Below the pieces are notes generated by a model, which was given only the letters and a program-made list of their open reading frames with translations, searched no databases and was not told the DNA's origin. Position numbers and translations under genes: made by a program. Of a stretch of DNA of 43,478 nucleotides, positions 2 to 30,279 are shown one piece after another. This DNA is from a virus. The stretch spans positions 1 to 43,478 of IMG/VR virus record IMGVR_UViG_3300021085_000071. One strand, written 5' to 3'. The stretch's first letter is position 1, and each line of letters opens with the position of its first letter.

Positions 2-2449
2 ATAAAAAGAGTTAAAGATGTTACAGACCTAAGTGTTGTTACAACTGATTGCTGGTTAGTAGATGAGGAGTATCAGTTAGACGATAAGATTAATTGGGTG
101 CCTAGTGTATTTGAAAAAGAAAGCATTCACACATTCCATTTCAAGAAACAATTAAGACATAAGTATCCAAACGAAATGGGTGGCATTCGTTGGGTTCCTA
201 AACAGTGGAACGAAGAGTATGTTATACATGAAAGTTTAGACTCTGAGCAAAAGAGTTACCCAGTAAAATTTGTAGACGATCCTACACTGCCACCGGAAGT
301 AGACAAGCCTATGTGGTTAGTAGACAAACTGTATCGTATACAAGATAAGATAGATTGGGTACCAGGAGACTTCGACACAGACAAAGTGCATGTATTCCAT
401 ATTGCTGAACAGTTAACAAACAAGTACACAGAAAATATGGGTGGTGCTTATTGGTGGCCTGGCAGTTCCACAGACTATGAGATTAAACCACACGAAGAAC
501 CTTTGCGTATACCTGTAGATCAATACCCAGTACACTTTGTAGAAAATGTTAATGACATTAGCGAAGTAAAAGAACCGTGCTGGTTAGTAGATGAGGAATA
601 CGAATTAGAGGACACTATTAATGTAATACCATACCAGAACGAACAAGAGCGTGAAATGATACACACTTATCATGTTCGTGGACAGTTAGAACATAAGTAC
701 CCAGAAGAAATGGGTGGTGTTCGTTGGGTACCTGGGAATAACAGCGAAGTAGAGATTAAAATACATGATACTACACCGTTTGGTAACTCGCTTAAATTTG
801 AGACATTTGCTAGTGAGGAAGAAGGCAGAGCTAACAGTCAAACAGGCTGGTTCTGGGTAATTGATAACGATGTAGATGTAGTAGAAGACTTTGACTTTGG
901 ATTTGTACCAGCAGTTTGGGATAAAGGCAAGAAGCATGTATGGCAAAAACTAAACCCTAAAACAGGCAGACAGTACGACTATGCAGGAGTATCACTATGT
1001 CCTAAAGAGCCTAATGCAAAAGGTCGTCCTAAATTCATCCGCGAGCCTGCTTGTACGCAACGCGAGTACCCCGTTTATACTTTGACGGCATCAGATTACA
1101 ACGAAACACTAGACGCCGCTTACAGACGCTTATGTGCGGCTACAGACACCGATATGTTCTGGGTAGTTGACTTACATACCCAAGTAGCACCGGATTTCAA
1201 CTTTGATTACTACCCTACACAATACGATAAAGGCTATATGCATGTCTTTTTAAACGAAGATGGCGAACATAAGAATGTTAGATTAGTGCCTAAAGAACTG
1301 TTTGATGAATGGGAATACACAGACGATCAAATACTAAACAACAGTTTAGGCAACTTAAAACTAATGACAGTTGAAGCAAGTTTACGACCTAAGTGGCCTA
1401 TTATTAGATTAGAGGATTACAATAGAGACGACTTTATAGACGAGTTAGAGAGTTATAGAGACGGATACGAAACAGGTGAACCAGTGCCGTTTGTCTGGAG
1501 TGTTAATCCACATACTGATATTGATGTACAAGGTACGCCTACTAAATTAGGGTTCTCTCCTAAAGTAGCAGACATAAACAAAATACATTGCTGGCAAAAA
1601 GTAAACGACCTTACTGGACAAACACACGGATATGGTGGACTTAGATTATGGCCTACCAACGGAGACTACAGTAAGTTAACCTCTGAAGACCTCAGATTAA
1701 ATAAAATTAAGAATGTTAACTACGTTCGTCAACAAGGAAGTATTACAGAAATGTTTGATATCATATTTTTAAGTTACAATGAACCAAATGCACCAGGGCG
1801 TTTTGATAAGTTACAAAAGAAAGTAAGTGAACTTGCTACAGTATCTAAACGCAAACCCAATTTAATATGGGTCAAAGATATTGAAGGTATATTCAATGCT
1901 CACCAACATGCAAGTGAGCGTGTTTCTAGTAAAATGTTTTGGGTAGTTGATGGTGATGCAGATGTGTTAGACAGTTTTGATTTCTCATACATGCCAGATG
2001 TGTATGATGAAGAAGTAGTACATGTTTGGAACAGTATGAACTTAATTAACGGACTTGAATATGGTTACGGTGGTGTTAAACTATTCCCAACACAGATGGT
2101 TAGAGATGCAACTACATGGGGATTAGACTTCACTACAGGACTAAGCAGTAGATTTAAGGCTATACCTGAGCTTAGTTGTTACACAAGATTCAACACAGAC
2201 GCTTACAGTGCGTGGAGAAGTGCGTTTAGAGAGTGTGTTAAACTATCACTCAACGATGATGCAGAAAGTAAAGAGCGTTTAGAAGCATGGTTACACCCTA
2301 ATCCAGATGCAGACTTTAGACATGATGCTAAACGAGGCGCCGAGGAAGCAGTAGCATTCGCAAAAGAGAATAAGGATAACACAGAGGTGTTATTAAACAT
2401 TAATGACTTTGATTGGCTAAAAACAACATATGAACAAAATAACTCTTAG
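2..2449 (+). CDS. Repeat-module protein of unknown function, 5' end outside window
   Basis: The reading frame is open from the left edge (first full codon at base 2), so the start lies outside. The visible 815 residues consist largely of about seven copies of one degenerate module of 45-55 residues: a W-(L/V)-V-D motif, an acidic stretch, a Pro, then H-x-(F/W), and a closing (M/Y)GG-x-x-(W/L)-x-P. Module starts lie near bases 47, 311, 578, 851, 1157, 1490 and 1937. The first three are closest to each other (HKYP and EMGG motifs); the later ones end in YGYGG-like motifs. The last 110 residues are helical, charged and repeat-free. I do not recognise the family. No signal peptide or membrane segment is visible in this part. 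The stop overlaps the next gene by 20 bases, so the two are co-translated. Confidence 0.85.
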   Translation: MKRVKDVTDLSVVTTDCWLVDEEYQLDDKINWVPSVFEKESIHTFHFKKQLRHKYPNEMGGIRWVPKQWNEEYVIHESLDSEQKSYPVKFVDDPTLPPEVDKPMWLVDKLYRIQDKIDWVPGDFDTDKVHVFHIAEQLTNKYTENMGGAYWWPGSSTDYEIKPHEEPLRIPVDQYPVHFVENVNDISEVKEPCWLVDEEYELEDTINVIPYQNEQEREMIHTYHVRGQLEHKYPEEMGGVRWVPGNNSEVEIKIHDTTPFGNSLKFETFASEEEGRANSQTGWFWVIDNDVDVVEDFDFGFVPAVWDKGKKHVWQKLNPKTGRQYDYAGVSLCPKEPNAKGRPKFIREPACTQREYPVYTLTASDYNETLDAAYRRLCAATDTDMFWVVDLHTQVAPDFNFDYYPTQYDKGYMHVFLNEDGEHKNVRLVPKELFDEWEYTDDQILNNSLGNLKLMTVEASLRPKWPIIRLEDYNRDDFIDELESYRDGYETGEPVPFVWSVNPHTDIDVQGTPTKLGFSPKVADINKIHCWQKVNDLTGQTHGYGGLRLWPTNGDYSKLTSEDLRLNKIKNVNYVRQQGSITEMFDIIFLSYNEPNAPGRFDKLQKKVSELATVSKRKPNLIWVKDIEGIFNAHQHASERVSSKMFWVVDGDADVLDSFDFSYMPDVYDEEVVHVWNSMNLINGLEYGYGGVKLFPTQMVRDATTWGLDFTTGLSSRFKAIPELSCYTRFNTDAYSAWRSAFRECVKLSLNDDAESKERLEAWLHPNPDADFRHDAKRGAEEAVAFAKENKDNTEVLLNINDFDWLKTTYEQNNS

Positions 2450-3095
2450 TGATTGGGAGAGTGTACACCACTGGGTAGATGACTGTGGCGTAAATGTTCC
2501 TCCTTCACTGATACACGAAGTAAACACAAACAAATACCCCAACGATGCATTTAGTGTAGGACAACTAGTAAGCAAAGCATGGTTAATAAGCACACTGCTA
2601 AGAACACCAATACAGCCTTATCAGACATGGGCTATACTAGGTTGCTGGGTAGGAGCATTAGTTCCACTACTGCATAGAGCTATGCCCATAGACAGAATCT
2701 ATGGCTTTGACATGGACCCTAAAAGCATTGAACTATCAGAATACTTAAACAGGCAATACTTACCAGGATGGAAGTACAAGGGTGTAGTTGCTGATGTTAA
2801 CGAACTTAATTGCCAGAATATGGAATTTATTACAGAAGGAGAGTTGATTTCTGTAAAACCTTATGCTATAATAAACACGAGCTGTGAGCATATGAACAAC
2901 GACTGGTTTGACAGTGTGGGTAATGATCAATTGATTATTATGCAAACTAATGACTCAGATCAGTATGACGATCATATAAACACTTGCTCTAGTGTTGAGG
3001 ATATGCAAGAACGCTATCCTTTAAAGAGAACAATGTATGCTGGAGAACTAAAGATACCAGTGTACAGTAGATTTATGCAGATAGGTTATAAATGA
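2430..3095 (+). CDS. SAM-dependent methyltransferase-like protein
   Basis: 221 residues, cytoplasmic. A class I methyltransferase-like core is visible: a hydrophobic strand followed by a Gly-rich turn (AILGCWVGALVPLL, about residues 68-81) and a strand ending in acidic residues (YGFDMDPKSIELS, about 90-102), in the positions of motif I and the ribose-binding acid. A later strand, YAIINTSCEHM, could be motif IV. The glycine loop is less canonical than GxGxG, so the activity is inferred and the substrate unknown. It starts inside the preceding gene and its stop overlaps the following ATG (ATGA), so it is translationally coupled on both sides. Confidence 0.65.
   Translation: MNKITLSDWESVHHWVDDCGVNVPPSLIHEVNTNKYPNDAFSVGQLVSKAWLISTLLRTPIQPYQTWAILGCWVGALVPLLHRAMPIDRIYGFDMDPKSIELSEYLNRQYLPGWKYKGVVADVNELNCQNMEFITEGELISVKPYAIINTSCEHMNNDWFDSVGNDQLIIMQTNDSDQYDDHINTCSSVEDMQERYPLKRTMYAGELKIPVYSRFMQIGYK
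2844..2872 (+). promoter_or_regulatory. Possible internal sigma70-type promoter
   Basis: TTGATT, 17 bases, TATAAT. It lies inside the methyltransferase-like gene and would drive the P-loop and Bfd-like genes. The -35 box matches only four of six bases, so this is tentative. Confidence 0.3.
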
Positions 3096-3616
3096 AACAA
3101 ACAAAAGTAATTAACTTTTATGGCGGCCCTGGCTCAGGTAAGAGTACTCAAGCAAGTGGCTTGTTTTATAAAATGAAAGCACAAGGTTACAGTGTTGAAC
3201 TAGTAAATGAATTTGCTAAAGAATGTGTTTGGGAAGGTAATGTACCTATGCTCAAAGACCAACTTTGGGTACTAGCACACCAACATCGTAAACTAGTAAG
3301 GCTTCGTGATAAAGTAGATTACATTATCACAGACAGCCCTGTGTTACTTAGTATTGTATATCGCAATGTATACGACGGTCCTATGTACACAGATGTTATG
3401 GATAAACTAGCATTAGAATGTTATCACATGTACGATAATATTAATGTAGTACTTAAACGAAGAGATCAATTTGATGCAGTGGGTAGAGCACAAGACAAAG
3501 CACACAGCGAACAAATAGATAAAGACATACTCGAAGTACTAAATGCTAACAACTGCACGTACAAAGCACTACATGTAACAGAAGACACCGTTAATAACAT
3601 ACTTGATGTTCTCTGA
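3092..3616 (+). CDS. P-loop nucleotide/nucleoside kinase-like ATPase
   Basis: 174 residues. A Walker A motif, GGPGSGKST, lies at about residues 11-19 behind a first beta strand (KVINFY), and a hydrophobic strand ending in acid (DYIITDSP, about 77-84) fits Walker B. Overall it resembles small phage P-loop kinases and AAA/NadR-like ATPases rather than hexameric AAA+ machines: it is short and I see no arginine-finger region. The substrate is unknown. The start overlaps the previous stop (ATGA), and its TGA overlaps the start of the next gene (TGATG), so the three + strand genes form one operon. Confidence 0.65.
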   Translation: MKQTKVINFYGGPGSGKSTQASGLFYKMKAQGYSVELVNEFAKECVWEGNVPMLKDQLWVLAHQHRKLVRLRDKVDYIITDSPVLLSIVYRNVYDGPMYTDVMDKLALECYHMYDNINVVLKRRDQFDAVGRAQDKAHSEQIDKDILEVLNANNCTYKALHVTEDTVNNILDVL

Positions 3617-3834
3617 TGTATAAATGTATATGCCATGCTGTAACAGATGGTGATGTCGATCGATATCATTTAATAGGAACTAAGTGCGGCAAGTGTCTAG
3701 AATGTCCTATGGGCAAGAAGATGCAAAAGAAGTTCAAAAAGAAAAACAAAAAGTTAATGAAGAAAACTATCACATGGCCTGAGCCAGACTTAGAGCCAAT
3801 TAACTTATACAACGCACCTAAAATACACTCATAA
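3616..3834 (+). CDS. Bfd-like [2Fe-2S] protein, shortened
   Basis: 72 residues. The N-terminus reads YKCICHAVTDGDV, matching bacterioferritin-associated ferredoxin (Bfd), and is followed by GTKCGKCLEC. Cys4, Cys6, Cys24 and Cys27 fit the Bfd CxC...CxxC cluster ligands; Cys30 is an extra cysteine. In E. coli Bfd the two pairs are about 32 residues apart, here only 17, so the helical segment between them is cut down. A strongly basic stretch follows (KKMQKKFKKKNKKLMKK), then an acidic/proline tail. Bfd normally passes electrons to bacterioferritin to release iron; whether this protein does so is unknown. It could be a general Fe-S or zinc protein that may bind nucleic acid through the lysine tract. 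Confidence 0.6.
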   Translation: MYKCICHAVTDGDVDRYHLIGTKCGKCLECPMGKKMQKKFKKKNKKLMKKTITWPEPDLEPINLYNAPKIHS

Positions 3835-3856
3835 AAAAAGCCCTCCGAAGAGGGCT
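3833..3856 (-). terminator. Rho-independent terminator, minus strand
   Basis: A perfect 7-bp stem (AGCCCTC/GAGGGCT) closes a TTCG tetraloop when read on the minus strand and is followed by a run of T. It ends the minus-strand block whose last gene stops at 3880 and sits between two convergent operons. On the + strand the T tract is missing, so it probably acts in one direction. Confidence 0.85.
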
Positions 3857-3879
3857 AAACTTTATAGAAGTACTGCTAT

Positions 3880-10286: not shown

Positions 10287-10592
10287 TTAATTCAATAGTT
10301 CTTTTAACTCACCCTTACTGTGCATTTCAGTTATAATGTCGCAACCGCCCATTAATTCACCTTTAACAAATAGTTGCGGGAATGTAGGCCAATCACTGAC
10401 CTTAGGTAAGTTTGATCTAACTTCAGGATCGGATAGTACATCTACATACCCAAATGGCTTACCTACTTCTTTTAAGCATTGTACTACTTTAGCACTAAAG
10501 CCGCATTGTGGTTGATGTGGATTGCCTTTCATAAACAATACAACATCATTAGATGCAATCATTTCTTTTATATTTTTTTCTATTTCGCTCAT
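10287..10592 (-). CDS. grxD: Monothiol glutaredoxin (Grx4/GrxD type)
   Basis: 101 residues, the usual GrxD length. It shows the active site CGFS at 30-33, a glutathione-binding Lys in FMKG (22), the WPTFPQLFVKGELMGG segment and GGCDI, all typical of monothiol glutaredoxins. Such proteins bind a glutathione-ligated [2Fe-2S] cluster and deliver Fe-S clusters, rather than acting as general disulfide reductases. It follows two membrane microproteins and cytochrome c in one operon. Shine-Dalgarno is weak, so translation may rely on coupling. Confidence 0.93.
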   Translation of the reverse strand: MSEIEKNIKEMIASNDVVLFMKGNPHQPQCGFSAKVVQCLKEVGKPFGYVDVLSDPEVRSNLPKVSDWPTFPQLFVKGELMGGCDIITEMHSKGELKELLN

Positions 10593-10672: not shown

Positions 10673-10767
10673 TACATTAGTACCAATAAACAAATTAATC
10701 CTACCCACCATAACCAGTGAGCAGATTTAAGTTCCTCTTTGATATCGTTAATGAATTTTTTAATCAT
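10672..10767 (-). CDS. 31-residue membrane microprotein
   Basis: An amphipathic basic N-terminus (MIKKFINDIKEELKSA) is followed by one span (HWLWWVGLICLLVLM). The start overlaps the cytochrome c stop (TAATG) and the stop overlaps the next microprotein (TAATG). Function unknown. By position it could anchor or partner the cytochrome c. Confidence 0.6.
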   Translation of the reverse strand: MIKKFINDIKEELKSAHWLWWVGLICLLVLM

Positions 10768-11216
10768 TACTTACTCGGAAGTCCTGCTTCTATAAACTTA
10801 CCTATTTGATCCATTTGGTCTGCACTAAGCATTCCTGCTTGAGCCCACATAGTAGCACTCATTGCACCAACTTGTCCTTTGTTCTTATAAGTGTTAAGTC
10901 TGTCTACAATGTATGCTGAACTCTGTCCTGTAAGTTTAGGGAATGGTCCCATGCCTTGTCCTTCTGCTCCGTGACATGCGGCACAACCTGCCCATAAACT
11001 TCTGATGTCACTGAACTCGTCTAAGTTAGCCAATGCTTGTTTGCGTTGCTCTATCTCAGATGGTGTGCCGTTAAGTGCTACATACTCTGCATAACATTCA
11101 CCTGTACAAGAACTGTTACTGCTGTAACCACTGTATGCCATGTTAGGATAGATCATTAACATAAAAAATACTGTGATTGCAACACAACCACCTAATGCTT
11201 TAATTAATTCGCTCAT
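10767..11216 (-). CDS. Class I c-type cytochrome, exported or membrane-anchored
   Basis: 149 residues. A hydrophobic segment at about 8-28 acts as a signal peptide or anchor. The single heme site is CAACH at 78-82, followed by GAEGQGMGPFPKLTGQSSAYI, the typical c4/c5-like continuation; Met119 or Met123 is the likely sixth ligand. The C-terminal helix (SADQMDQIGKFIEAGL) completes a class I fold. There are two further Cys (37, 41) before the domain. Heme attachment would need the host Ccm system in the periplasm. It starts on the stop of a dithiol glutaredoxin (TAATG) and is followed by two membrane microproteins. It probably feeds or diverts host respiratory electrons during infection (inference). 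Confidence 0.88.
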   Translation of the reverse strand: MSELIKALGGCVAITVFFMLMIYPNMAYSGYSSNSSCTGECYAEYVALNGTPSEIEQRKQALANLDEFSDIRSLWAGCAACHGAEGQGMGPFPKLTGQSSAYIVDRLNTYKNKGQVGAMSATMWAQAGMLSADQMDQIGKFIEAGLPSK

Positions 11217-11446
11217 TACTTACTTGCCTCTACTAACGCCTTGTATTCAGTAAAACCGCCAATCTTTTCACCGTTTACAATAATCTGTGGGAATGTTCTA
11301 GCACCTGGAAATGTTTCCATTAGTGTTTCTCTGTCAAAGTCCTCGTCTAACATTTTGTATGTTAGTTCGTGTCCTTCTCTTTCTGCTAATGCTTTTGCTT
11401 GTACGCAAAATGGACATTGTGGTTTACTATAAATTTCTACTTTCAT
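11216..11446 (-). CDS. Dithiol glutaredoxin
   Basis: 76 residues, short as in Grx3-type and phage glutaredoxins. It has the active site CPFC at 11-14, the cis-Pro TFPQ, and a GG motif (NGEKIGG) for glutathione binding. It reduces disulfides with glutathione, for example as donor to ribonucleotide reductase. Here it is the first of a tight Grx, cytochrome c, microproteins, GrxD set. A GAGAGGAA-like Shine-Dalgarno lies before the ATG. Confidence 0.92.
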   Translation of the reverse strand: MKVEIYSKPQCPFCVQAKALAEREGHELTYKMLDEDFDRETLMETFPGARTFPQIIVNGEKIGGFTEYKALVEASK

Positions 11447-16125: not shown

Positions 16126-16154
16126 ATTATACATTATGTACACTGTAATGTCAA
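16126..16154 (-). promoter_or_regulatory. Consensus sigma70-type early promoter for queE operon
   Basis: TTGACA (16154-16149), 17 bases, TATAAT (16131-16126) on the minus strand. The -35 box overlaps the end of the fpr gene. Both boxes are perfect. Confidence 0.86.
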
Positions 16155-16867
16155 TCTACAAATGCTCGTTCAAGCATGAAATCACCTGCTTCACCTACAT
16201 TGCCTTCAACCCAGCCTTGCTCTGTGAACTGCTTTCTACATTGTTTATTTAGGTCTGTTGACCCACAAACCATAACAGAATCTCGCCCAAGTGTAAGTCC
16301 ACCGGGTAAGAACTCTTCAATGTGGTCCCAAAATCTACCAACTCGTGGGTAGTCTTCTCTGGTTACACTATCAATATATCTGAATGGTAAGTCTCCTTCA
16401 AGTAATGAAAGTTCTGGTCTGTATGCTAGTTCAACTTTTTCTCTAACAGTGTGAAACAAAAATACATTGTCGTACTTTTCATATGTTTCAAAGTCTTTAG
16501 TAATACTCATAAACGGAGCAATGCCTGTACCAGTTGAAAGCATGACCAAGTTCTTGGTTGGTTTGAGGTAATCAATTACCAAACTGCCTGTACACTTAGG
16601 CTTGATTAATATCTCATCACCTATTTGAATGTTTTGTAACTTGCTTGTTAGCGGACCATCTTGTACTTTGATACTTAAAAACTCTATAAAGTCATCGTAG
16701 TTAGTACTCACAACACTGTATGCTCTGTATATAGGCCTTGGTTCTACATCTAATCCAATCATAGCAAACTCGCCATTCTTAAAACGAAAGGCTTTATCAC
16801 GAGTTGTTTTAAAACTAAACAACCTATCACTGTAGTGTTTTACTTCTGTTACTTTTTCTATGAACAT
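16151..16867 (-). CDS. fpr: Ferredoxin/flavodoxin-NADP+ reductase (Fpr type)
   Basis: 238 residues, close to bacterial Fpr length. FAD-binding RAYS at 48-51 (RPIYRAYSVVS), NADP-binding STGTGIAPF at about 111-119, VMVCGS near 210, and the C-terminal ERAFVD typical of bacterial Fpr. It moves electrons between NADPH and ferredoxin or flavodoxin in the cytoplasm. The phage may use it to power radical-SAM QueE, Fe-S proteins or ribonucleotide reduction (inference). The ATG overlaps the upstream TAG. It ends its operon just before the queE promoter. Confidence 0.9.
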   Translation of the reverse strand: MFIEKVTEVKHYSDRLFSFKTTRDKAFRFKNGEFAMIGLDVEPRPIYRAYSVVSTNYDDFIEFLSIKVQDGPLTSKLQNIQIGDEILIKPKCTGSLVIDYLKPTKNLVMLSTGTGIAPFMSITKDFETYEKYDNVFLFHTVREKVELAYRPELSLLEGDLPFRYIDSVTREDYPRVGRFWDHIEEFLPGGLTLGRDSVMVCGSTDLNKQCRKQFTEQGWVEGNVGEAGDFMLERAFVD

Positions 16868-27518: not shown

Positions 27519-30215
27519 TTAAAATTCAAAAAACTGTTGCATAGTTTCGGATTCATGTATACGATCTAAGTCAAATCCCATTTGACCTATCACATTGGTT
27601 ACCTTCTTATCAAGTACTGCTGTTTCCATTGCCTCGTCATCAAACGGCAATTCTTTAAACCAATCTGGTAAATGCATCTCATCAGTTGGATATGCAATAC
27701 TGTCATAGCCCATTGCATTACTTTTAAGCCTACACACAATTACTTTCATACCGTCTGTAATAGTCATGCTGTAGTTGTCGCCTTGTGCTTGTTTAAAGTT
27801 ATTCCAATTGATACTTGCTCTAACATGCCCAGGAATAGTTGCACCTTTCTTCTTGCCGTCATCCTTAATTGCATCTAACCTATGTAGTCTATAGTTGTCA
27901 GGAGCATTTACTCTAGCCTTCTCAGCCATCTTAGCAGTGTATGTAGTTAAGTTGTTTACACGCTTCGGCATACCTTTCTGCCAACTTGGTAAATCTTTAA
28001 AGTATTTCTTGTAGTCTCTGATCTTATCAATGACATCTTTTTCTGTTGAGCCATCCAAGCAGTCTCGTAATATTTCTTCTAAGAAGTCTTGTATGAACTC
28101 TGGTGTATCACTACGCTTCAAGTCCAATCCCATAACTTTTAGTTTGCCACCTTCTGGTTGCCAACCTTCCAAGTCTAGTACTTGGATAGCATAACGCTTC
28201 TTAGTAATAAACAAACCTGATCGACCAACTACTTCTCGTCCTGCTTTCATAACCTTGCCGGACTCTAGTGGAACATTAAATGTATCCTTTAGCCATTGTG
28301 GGAATGTATCACTAACTGTGTCTGAGATATGATCATACAACTTAATTGCACTTTCCATATCTAAGCCTTGCCCTTCGGGTAAAGCCGGAACAGCACTAAA
28401 GTAAACAGAGTCAGTGTCACCATATATCATACAGTCTCCTGTGTGATCATATTTGCCTGTTAGCATACGATTAGTTTCAGCACCCATGTGTTTAGTAATA
28501 GCTCTGCCTGTTAGTGTAGTACTCTGTCCTATGCGTTTGTCAAAGAACCTACAATGTGGATTAAGTATCGCACCATACAAACTGTTCAAGTTAATCTTCT
28601 TAACTAACTGTCGCTTATCATAGAACGCCTTTTCAGCATCTGTGGTTGCTTCTTTCTTCTTGCCTTGCAACACTTGTCTCTCACTGTACCAACGCTCTAG
28701 TAGTCCTGGAACAATGCCTTGGAAGTCTGTTCTAAAGATAGTACCGTTAGCACTAATGTTCCAAGGTTGTCCGCTGTTGAACACTAAGTTGTATACATCA
28801 GCACCAGTGACTTCTACTGTGTCGCCACCTATCATGTCTAGCTCTAATGGACGATCAACATCCTTATTCATTACTAGTTCAAATTCATTACTACCAAACT
28901 TACCTAACCAAGCATCAGCAAACGACTTCTTCTCTAATACAATCTTGTCATTAATCTCTTGATCTGTGTATGTGGGTTTGAGCTGTGCAACAATAGTCTC
29001 TGGTGCCATATTCAATGCTCTAAACACACTAGGATATAGACTGTTTAAGTCCATGCTACCTACCCATTCGTGATAACCTTTCTTGGGGAACGCAACATAA
29101 GCACCTGCCGCCTGTGTGTTCTCTTCTCTATTCTTTACACGATCAGGAACAACATATCCTCGTCTATGGCTTTCGTTAATAATTGCTTGTTCTGTTGTAG
29201 CCACAGCACCCATTGTTACAGGAAGTAATACAGTATTGTCATGTGCAATAGTGTTAGCCAAGTCAATGAACTGTAGTTTCTTATCTAGTTTATCCAACAA
29301 CAATGTATCTTGAATGTTGTATTCTAAGAACTTTTCAAAGTCATGATTGTATAGTTTATCTAGCGAACCTTCATAGGCTACTTTCTTTTCACCTACTTCC
29401 ATCTCACCAATGTAGTCTAGTCTGTAACTGTGTCGTTCCTCATAGTTATACTTTCTATACAATTGCATATAGTCTAAGTGTACACGCCCTATAAGGTCGT
29501 ATGTAGTACGCTCTGCACCAAACGCTTCATAGGTCTTCTTCATTGGAGTCTTATCAAACAAACATAACTTACGAGTTTCTGCTTTGCCTAATGTACGCAC
29601 AATACGATTGTATGTGTAAGGAATATCATAACCCTCACTGTTCCAACCACTTAGTATGTCAGCATCTTCAATTACTTCTAGGAATGTTTTTAGTAGCTCG
29701 GCTTCTGTGCGAAACAGTATAACCTCTGGCATCTTACTTGCTATGCTTTGTGCTTGTCCCCAACTAAGTGTTTTAGGTGGTACTGCTAAACACACCATTG
29801 CATCCATCCACTGTAAATATACAGCGACAGATGTTATAGGAGTAAACGAATCATCGGGAGAACTATATCCTCTCTGTGGATCAAAGTCCACCTCAATATC
29901 AAAAAATGCTGTGTGTAGTTTAGGTGGCTCTGCATTTGTGTAATGCTTTGCTAGTGTCTTGTTAAGAGGCTTAATGTCACTTTCGAATGTAACATTGTGC
30001 GTATTCATTGCAATATTCTTCTTAAAGTCTTTGTCGTTATTGCAACGAACTTCTGTGACCGGCTGGCCATATATGCTTTGCTGTTTACCTTTTGGATCGA
30101 GTATATAGAAGTTATACTCAGGCTTTAGTTGTTGAATAATTCTCTTACCATCTACACGCTCAACTACATGTATAATATCTTTGCTCTTCTCGAAGAAGGC
30201 GTCAACATAACTCAT
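27519..30215 (-). CDS. 43: DNA polymerase, family B, gp43
   Basis: 898 residues from the ATG at 30215 (GGAG nine bases upstream; an in-frame TTG five codons earlier is less likely), the same length as T4 gp43. Exonuclease motifs: FDIEVDF (Asp106), DILSGWNSEGYDIPY and YNIQDTLLL. Polymerase motifs: MDLNSLYPS (A), KKINLNSLYG (B) and YGDTDSVY (C, about 597). It copies the phage genome with 3'-5' proofreading. The C-terminus ends QQFFEF, the site where T4/RB69 polymerases carry their clamp-binding tail. No frameshift or intein. Confidence 0.97.
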   Translation of the reverse strand: MSYVDAFFEKSKDIIHVVERVDGKRIIQQLKPEYNFYILDPKGKQQSIYGQPVTEVRCNNDKDFKKNIAMNTHNVTFESDIKPLNKTLAKHYTNAEPPKLHTAFFDIEVDFDPQRGYSSPDDSFTPITSVAVYLQWMDAMVCLAVPPKTLSWGQAQSIASKMPEVILFRTEAELLKTFLEVIEDADILSGWNSEGYDIPYTYNRIVRTLGKAETRKLCLFDKTPMKKTYEAFGAERTTYDLIGRVHLDYMQLYRKYNYEERHSYRLDYIGEMEVGEKKVAYEGSLDKLYNHDFEKFLEYNIQDTLLLDKLDKKLQFIDLANTIAHDNTVLLPVTMGAVATTEQAIINESHRRGYVVPDRVKNREENTQAAGAYVAFPKKGYHEWVGSMDLNSLYPSVFRALNMAPETIVAQLKPTYTDQEINDKIVLEKKSFADAWLGKFGSNEFELVMNKDVDRPLELDMIGGDTVEVTGADVYNLVFNSGQPWNISANGTIFRTDFQGIVPGLLERWYSERQVLQGKKKEATTDAEKAFYDKRQLVKKINLNSLYGAILNPHCRFFDKRIGQSTTLTGRAITKHMGAETNRMLTGKYDHTGDCMIYGDTDSVYFSAVPALPEGQGLDMESAIKLYDHISDTVSDTFPQWLKDTFNVPLESGKVMKAGREVVGRSGLFITKKRYAIQVLDLEGWQPEGGKLKVMGLDLKRSDTPEFIQDFLEEILRDCLDGSTEKDVIDKIRDYKKYFKDLPSWQKGMPKRVNNLTTYTAKMAEKARVNAPDNYRLHRLDAIKDDGKKKGATIPGHVRASINWNNFKQAQGDNYSMTITDGMKVIVCRLKSNAMGYDSIAYPTDEMHLPDWFKELPFDDEAMETAVLDKKVTNVIGQMGFDLDRIHESETMQQFFEF

Positions 30216-30279
30216 TCTGTCTTTCTCCAAGCAACACTTTCGGCTGTCGCAATACCACTACTAATATATATGTCTTAAG

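Follow-up and report, generated by a model that had tools for sequence, protein, structure and literature searches.

Background

Among the closest described systems are Bfd and NifU. In Bfd the cluster cysteines lie on loops L1 and L3, which form the surface for interaction with Bfr (PMC12363616), and Y2 is placed at the Bfr interface with L5 having a large buried surface (PMC13136788). Three parts make up NifU, namely a domain resembling IscU, the [2Fe-2S] core domain and one resembling Nfu; GrxD delivers the [2Fe-2S] cluster of the core domain (PMC13382767). Phage versions of IscU, A-type carriers and Grx have already been published (PMC5332604 and PMC9038755). Bfd itself is already annotated in cultured phages such as Klebsiella phage vB_KpM_FBKp34 and Acinetobacter phage ME3, with near-canonical spacing of about 30-32 residues (by eye) between the ligand pairs.

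The new element is a shortened form of this protein, termed mini-Bfd. Searches of literature full text listed no description of a shortened phage Bfd, a sequence family being something that cannot be sought by words. Mini-Bfd is carried by many uncultured viruses of bacteria, with a core that alignment places at about 28 residues. The favoured explanation, to which we give an even chance, is that of a minimal Bfd-type [2Fe-2S] ferredoxin that would serve iron-sulfur assembly in the infected cell; its cofactor, its partners and which way the electrons flow are inferred here.

The mini-Bfd gene and its surroundings

The window, meaning the whole stretch of 43,478 nucleotides analysed here (IMG/VR record IMGVR_UViG_3300021085_000071), contains one mini-Bfd gene, with the following features.

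3616..3834, + strand: mini-Bfd gene; ATG at 3616, stop at 3832-3834; 72-aa product, relatives found
3616..3699, + strand: conserved core, residues 1-28, MYxCxC ... YHLIGTKCGKC, from the alignment of homologous cores
3625..3633, + strand: first Cys pair, C4-x-C6, from the sequence; 42/42 distinct cores
3685..3696, + strand: second Cys pair, C24-x-x-C27, from the sequence; 42/42 distinct cores
3715..3765, + strand: Lys-rich tract, residues 34-50 (KKMQKKFKKKNKKLMKK), a lineage feature
3775..3822, + strand: tail WPEPDLEPINLYNAPK, residues 54-69, matching a stand-alone phage micro-ORF

The protein begins with MYKCICHAVTDGDVDRYHLIGTKCGKC, continues with the Lys-rich stretch and ends in the tail WPEPDLEPINLYNAPKIHS. 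Seventeen residues separate the CxC pair (C4, C6) from the CxxC pair (C24, C27), and Cys30 is an additional, non-conserved cysteine. The CxC...CxxC ligand pattern, the 17-residue spacing and the Lys tract had all been described in an earlier sequence-only reading of this DNA, and each is confirmed in the 72-aa ORF. One match per record was found in the 42 records searched for copy number, the window among them.

A hairpin (AGCCCTCCGAAGAGGGCT) follows the stop at 3835-3862, with a T run after it on the minus strand (by eye), and looks like a terminator of opposite-strand genes. The tail at 3775-3822 resembles a stand-alone micro-ORF, M-(IE)-W-x-x-L-x-LPPINLYNAPK, present in 90 viral stretches (L219-L294 among them), where it adjoins late structural and lysis-type genes named by eye.

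Several neighbours and redox genes of the window bear on the possible function.

2430..3095, + strand: conserved gene further upstream, weakly similar to methyltransferases; by eye like the gene upstream of the 21-residue form in L354
3092..3616, + strand: upstream gene of the AAA_28 / phage 'thymidylate kinase' family, its stop overlapping the mini-Bfd start (TGATG)
10287..10592, - strand: Grx4-family monothiol glutaredoxin (CGFS), candidate cluster donor; TIGR00365 at 145.6 bits, cut-off 117.1
10767-11216, - strand: cytochrome c-like protein, a redox gene in the same 43 kb
11264..11440, - strand: second glutaredoxin domain, a PF00462 match
16151..16867, - strand: ferredoxin-NADP reductase-like (FPR-like) gene, candidate reductase; NF008178 at 108.8 bits, below the cut-off of 390

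The DNA polymerase of the window (27519-30230) is closest, among cultured phages, to those of jumbo phages such as Sinorhizobium phage Phosso (46% identity), and a relative at 76% identity lies in a record of 339,794 bases (L409). Because of these two kinds of relatives, the window probably represents only part of a large phage genome.

Distribution and conservation

A scan of IMG/VR with the window protein returned 32 loci, four of which (L029-L032) match the tail only, and a scan with the core alignment returned 75. A search seeded with the form having 21 residues between the pairs (21-form) gave 102 relatives; the best 80 of the 102 comprise 69 of spacing 21, 10 of spacing 17 and one of spacing 19. 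In total, 46 distinct proteins have the 17-residue spacing (17-form), the window protein included, 44 have 21 and one has 19. The shortest member of the family is 31 aa long.

Cultured phages gave no match at E up to 10 to either the window protein or a composite core, and weak partial matches only to a 21-form. Plasmids yielded two partial, chance-level matches to the 17-form. The first scan of bacterial genomes found no relative; the second, with a 21-form query, kept four loci, all Bfd-like and with 31 residues between the pairs (e.g. MYVCICNAITEKQIRQ). In PHROGs the window protein is without a match, as are 24 members of set A7 at E 0.01, and five weak matches were obtained for 17-form members (best E 0.053).

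Conservation was assessed on 71 homologous cores, which reduce to 43 distinct by DNA and 42 by protein. The four Cys, Y17, L19, I20, G21 and G25 are invariant in all 42 distinct 17-form cores and H18 occurs in 41; one of the search patterns fixed YHLIGTKC, but members were also recovered with patterns for the N-terminal CxC or for the CGKC end alone. The Bfd-like reading of the sequence had hung on cysteines being kept in homologues, and they are. All 44 distinct 21-forms likewise keep the four Cys as CxC...CxxC at the protein start. The median NG86 dN/dS is 0.18; of 903 pairs, the 140 whose dS falls in the range 0-1.5 entered the calculation. Mini-Bfd is therefore a real gene under purifying selection, its existence and its conservation both being directly observed. 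A fifth Cys beside the second ligand pair (GTCCGKC) is seen in L105, L114, L116 and L117.

The Lys tract is distributed differently. A 20-aa stretch with at least eight K/R is present downstream of CxxC in 13 of the 41 distinct unfused 17-form proteins, and the tract is a feature of part of the 17-forms rather than a family trait. Binding of nucleic acid by this tract was rejected as a family function, as most members are without it.

Relationship to Bfd

Mini-Bfd shares with Bfd (Fer2_BFD PF04324, PRK10509; PDB 4e6k, 6e6q-s) the MYxCxC start, the (V/I)T(D/E) that follows, the G(T/S)xCGKC end and the order of the ligands. The difference lies in the stretch between the Cys pairs, which is 31-32 residues in Bfd and 17 in the window protein (17, 19 or 21 across the family). 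In E. coli Bfd the figure is 32.

When profile A5, the core alignment of 48 rows (five of them 21-forms), was compared with 177,635 PDB sequences, four Bfd chains came out on top (E 0.0019-0.0056), and Bfd is the sole family with a full-length match to the core. In hhalign the 17-form-rich core alignment pairs with Bfd at a probability of 97.0 and the 21-form at 97.2, and the two align with each other at 99.4. The family profile scores 25.6 bits on the E. coli Bfd sequence, 24.4 and 18.1 on Bfds read from records, and 13.9 and 13.8 on two more phage Bfd-like proteins. One hundred Cys-preserving column shuffles reach at most 9.8 bits against Bfd, compared with the real 25.6, and 104 motif-matched negatives (other open frames of similar Cys pattern) at most 4.5. 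In a model scan of 24 members, three of them bacterial, the 21-forms match Bfd models directly (L310: PRK10509 E 2.6e-8, Fer2_BFD E 2.8e-4).

Descent from Bfd, on which these comparisons bear directly, is very probable. The alignments give good support to such an ancestry with loss of an internal segment, because Bfd tops the PDB search, shuffles and motif controls are beaten and 21-forms match Bfd models. The spacing series 31-21-19-17 is most simply read as the loss of a segment between the two ligand loops. The profile comparisons and the spacing thus bear out the earlier description of a Bfd-like protein with a shortened core, a minimal variant.

The window protein itself reaches 12.6 bits on Fer2_BFD (cut-off 26) and 11.4 on PRK10509 (cut-off 75), and no Pfam or NCBIfam model exceeds its cut-off; it therefore cannot be filed as Bfd by that rule. 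Other 17-forms, taken singly, likewise stay under the curated Bfd cut-offs. The Fer2_BFD score counts against the favoured role as a [2Fe-2S] carrier, as does the lack of a confident AlphaFold2 fold. With a pLDDT of 54.7 for the full protein (43 sequences) and 56.3 for the core (48 sequences), the models are too poor to place the four Cys, and structure prediction is thus uninformative on the ligand geometry. Membership of the 4Fe-4S ferredoxins (Fer4) was rejected: the core is without the CxxCxxCxxxC motif, and Fer4_9 scores 14.9 bits on the window protein, below its cut-off of 27.

A change of cofactor after descent from Bfd would make mini-Bfd a micro-domain holding zinc or mononuclear iron, a knuckle for structure or for protein binding that could also serve as an N-terminal module on DNA-processing enzymes. 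Sub-threshold Pfam matches of 15 of 18 members include zinc_ribbon_6 (best E 0.012), and in the PDB search the DUF35 rubredoxin-like protein 6esq aligns with YHLIGTKCGKC at E 0.015; the fusions to a UvsW-like helicase and a PD-(D/E)XK nuclease described below would suit such a module. However, Bfd ranks above DUF35 in that same search with the only full-length core match, the first pair is CxC where zinc ribbons have CxxC, and the iscU/iscA link speaks for an iron-sulfur role, so a change of cofactor is unlikely. Zinc ribbon PF14599 is not among the matches of the window protein up to E 10, the best family member giving E 0.012. Membership of the zinc ribbons (PF14599, DUF35) was rejected, the core being without two CxxC-type knuckles and scoring below the cut-off.

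A Bfd-like protein encoded at 1001-1219 of OQ572407.1 (L217; Pseudomonas phage Y5, 'UNVERIFIED') matches P. aeruginosa Bfd 4e6k over all 73 residues at E 6.1e-46. This record may hold host DNA.

Linkage to iron-sulfur assembly genes

The gene neighbourhood in related phages was examined in 100 mini-Bfd loci, dereplicated by identical sequence around the gene and with the window left out. IscU is encoded in the fetched flanks of 22, on the same strand in 22/22 and within 500 nt in eight. These 22 loci represent 17 of the 86 distinct mini-Bfd proteins in the set; counted by record, IscU is present in 16/77. With the same queries neither control gave IscU: 0/80 loci surrounding polymerases related to the DNA polymerase of the window, and 0/76 around an unrelated phage micro-ORF. 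Fisher tests give p = 8.7e-7 against the polymerase control and 2.2e-10 against both, values that are inflated since the loci are related.

The arrangement varies between loci. In L072 and L116 iscU directly precedes mini-Bfd, with stop and start overlapping, and the L116 IscU is above the cut-off of TIGR01999. The order is iscU-iscA-miniBfd in L084-L087 (overlapping in L085 and L087), iscU-x-miniBfd-iscA in L122 and miniBfd-iscU in L331. An A-type carrier is found at 7/100 loci and in 8/50 records. In L469 NfuA lies close downstream of a 21-form (TIGR03341 E 8e-71, below cut-off; PF01106 is also in the record), and tblastn found no NfuA in the other 100 loci.

The linkage of mini-Bfd to iscU/iscA is thus recurrent and real, as observed directly in these flanks. 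It is not universal, because the fetched flanks of 78/100 loci and, separately, the window record show no IscU, and mini-Bfd lies in the fetched flanks of only 3/80 IscU-bearing viral loci. The window record has no match to IscU, IscA-type or Nfu proteins, and all family records may be fragments. The missing IscU at most loci and in the window counts against a role in cluster assembly, as do the presence of FPR in only 2/50 records and of NfuA at a single locus. Both records with FPR are close relatives of the window, and FPR was rejected as a general partner of mini-Bfd for this reason.

The neighbourhood also bears on the role that the sequence-only reading had suggested, mobilisation of iron from host bacterioferritin. 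The phage protein would dock on bacterioferritin, pass electrons to the heme and release Fe2+ for phage enzymes. Bfd ancestry is in keeping with this, as are the Bfd-annotated genes of cultured phages and the FPR-like gene in the window, FPR being the Bfd reductase in Pseudomonas. Both loops of the Bfr interaction surface are kept, nearly all 17-forms have a hydrophobic residue at position 2 (Y/F/I/L) and at position 5 (I/V/L), and Y2 is found in 44/44 21-forms. However, positions 2 and 5 flank the ligands and were perhaps kept for folding, and the internal deletion and truncated C-terminus strip away most of Bfd outside the two loops. A ferritin gene was found in 0/50 family records, a weak argument given that the host would supply ferritin. 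With IscU, IscA-type and NfuA genes as neighbours (IscU at 22/100 loci against 0/80 and 0/76), the genomic setting favours iron-sulfur assembly, and iron mobilisation gives way as the leading role; we regard it as improbable.

Fusions to DNA enzymes

In some members the mini-Bfd core is in frame with a larger protein. The partner is a UvsW-like helicase in L079-L082, L093 and L095, identified by eye against T4 UvsW. In L357 and similar loci to L364 it is a PD-(D/E)XK nuclease (PDDEXK_1 in Pfam, E 3e-7 for L357), and in L108, L109, L119 and L367 it is a small unknown protein. Internal starts in the fused proteins are possible, because a Met follows soon after CGxC in every downstream part.

The fusions suit a wider or different role than cluster assembly. 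The Fe-S domain could sense redox state or iron during phage DNA processing and modulate recombination/repair enzymes, the helicase or nuclease that it is fused to or neighbours. Two forms have been fused independently to two DNA enzymes, and nucleases of that family also occur as separate genes near mini-Bfd in other loci. The early Met means that the fusions may stem from gene overlap, most members are unfused and in the window no such enzyme adjoins mini-Bfd; a sensor is an explanation we consider very unlikely. The sequence-only reading had also entertained a new minimal Fe-S or zinc domain that binds nucleic acid. Its minimal variant stands, the basic tract as the means of binding is weakened, and the helicase and nuclease fusions leave room for some DNA-linked role.

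Proposed function

The favoured iron-sulfur carrier would have kept the CxC and CxxC ligand loops of Bfd and lost 10 (21-form) or 14 (17-form) residues, counted from the 31-spaced bacterial Bfd. It is probably a small one-electron carrier for the assembly or repair of iron-sulfur clusters during infection, where it would fill the role of the central Bfd-like domain in NifU or of Fdx in the isc system. The partner would be the phage's own IscU/IscA if it encodes them, and host IscU otherwise. In the lineage of the window, mini-Bfd could be reduced by the phage FPR-like reductase and receive its cluster from the phage Grx4.

The frequent position of mini-Bfd beside cluster-building genes suggests that these viruses themselves manage the supply of iron-sulfur cofactors during infection. 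If it carries a [2Fe-2S] cluster, it would show how little protein a ferredoxin needs and offer a natural, easily synthesised model. IscU and the A-type carriers, already known from phages, would then be joined by an electron-transfer component, and the upkeep of iron-sulfur enzymes by the phage during infection would be directly testable with three small proteins.

Comparison with known systems

Marine phages, too, encode iron-sulfur assembly proteins, IscU and A-type carriers, and with them Grx and Fe-S enzymes (PMC5332604 and PMC9038755). No Bfd-like ferredoxin is named in the passages on these genes. Fdx of the isc operon shares with mini-Bfd a place beside iscU/iscA (at some loci) and a putative electron-donor role. 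Fdx belongs to a different fold family, and we claim no similarity of sequence.

The central [2Fe-2S] domain of NifU is Bfd-like, as is mini-Bfd, and works with an IscU-like scaffold; NifU_proper is matched weakly by two members of set A7 (best E 1.5e-4). NifU is one chain, whereas mini-Bfd is encoded by a separate short gene, is shortened and is not covalently joined to IscU. It can be suggested, tentatively and with doubt outweighing belief, that members of 31-36 aa are the smallest stand-alone [2Fe-2S] ferredoxin, cut from Bfd between the ligand loops to give a detached miniature of the NifU core. The separate phage genes iscU, mini-Bfd and iscA (or NfuA) would then form a portable kit for iron-sulfur assembly.
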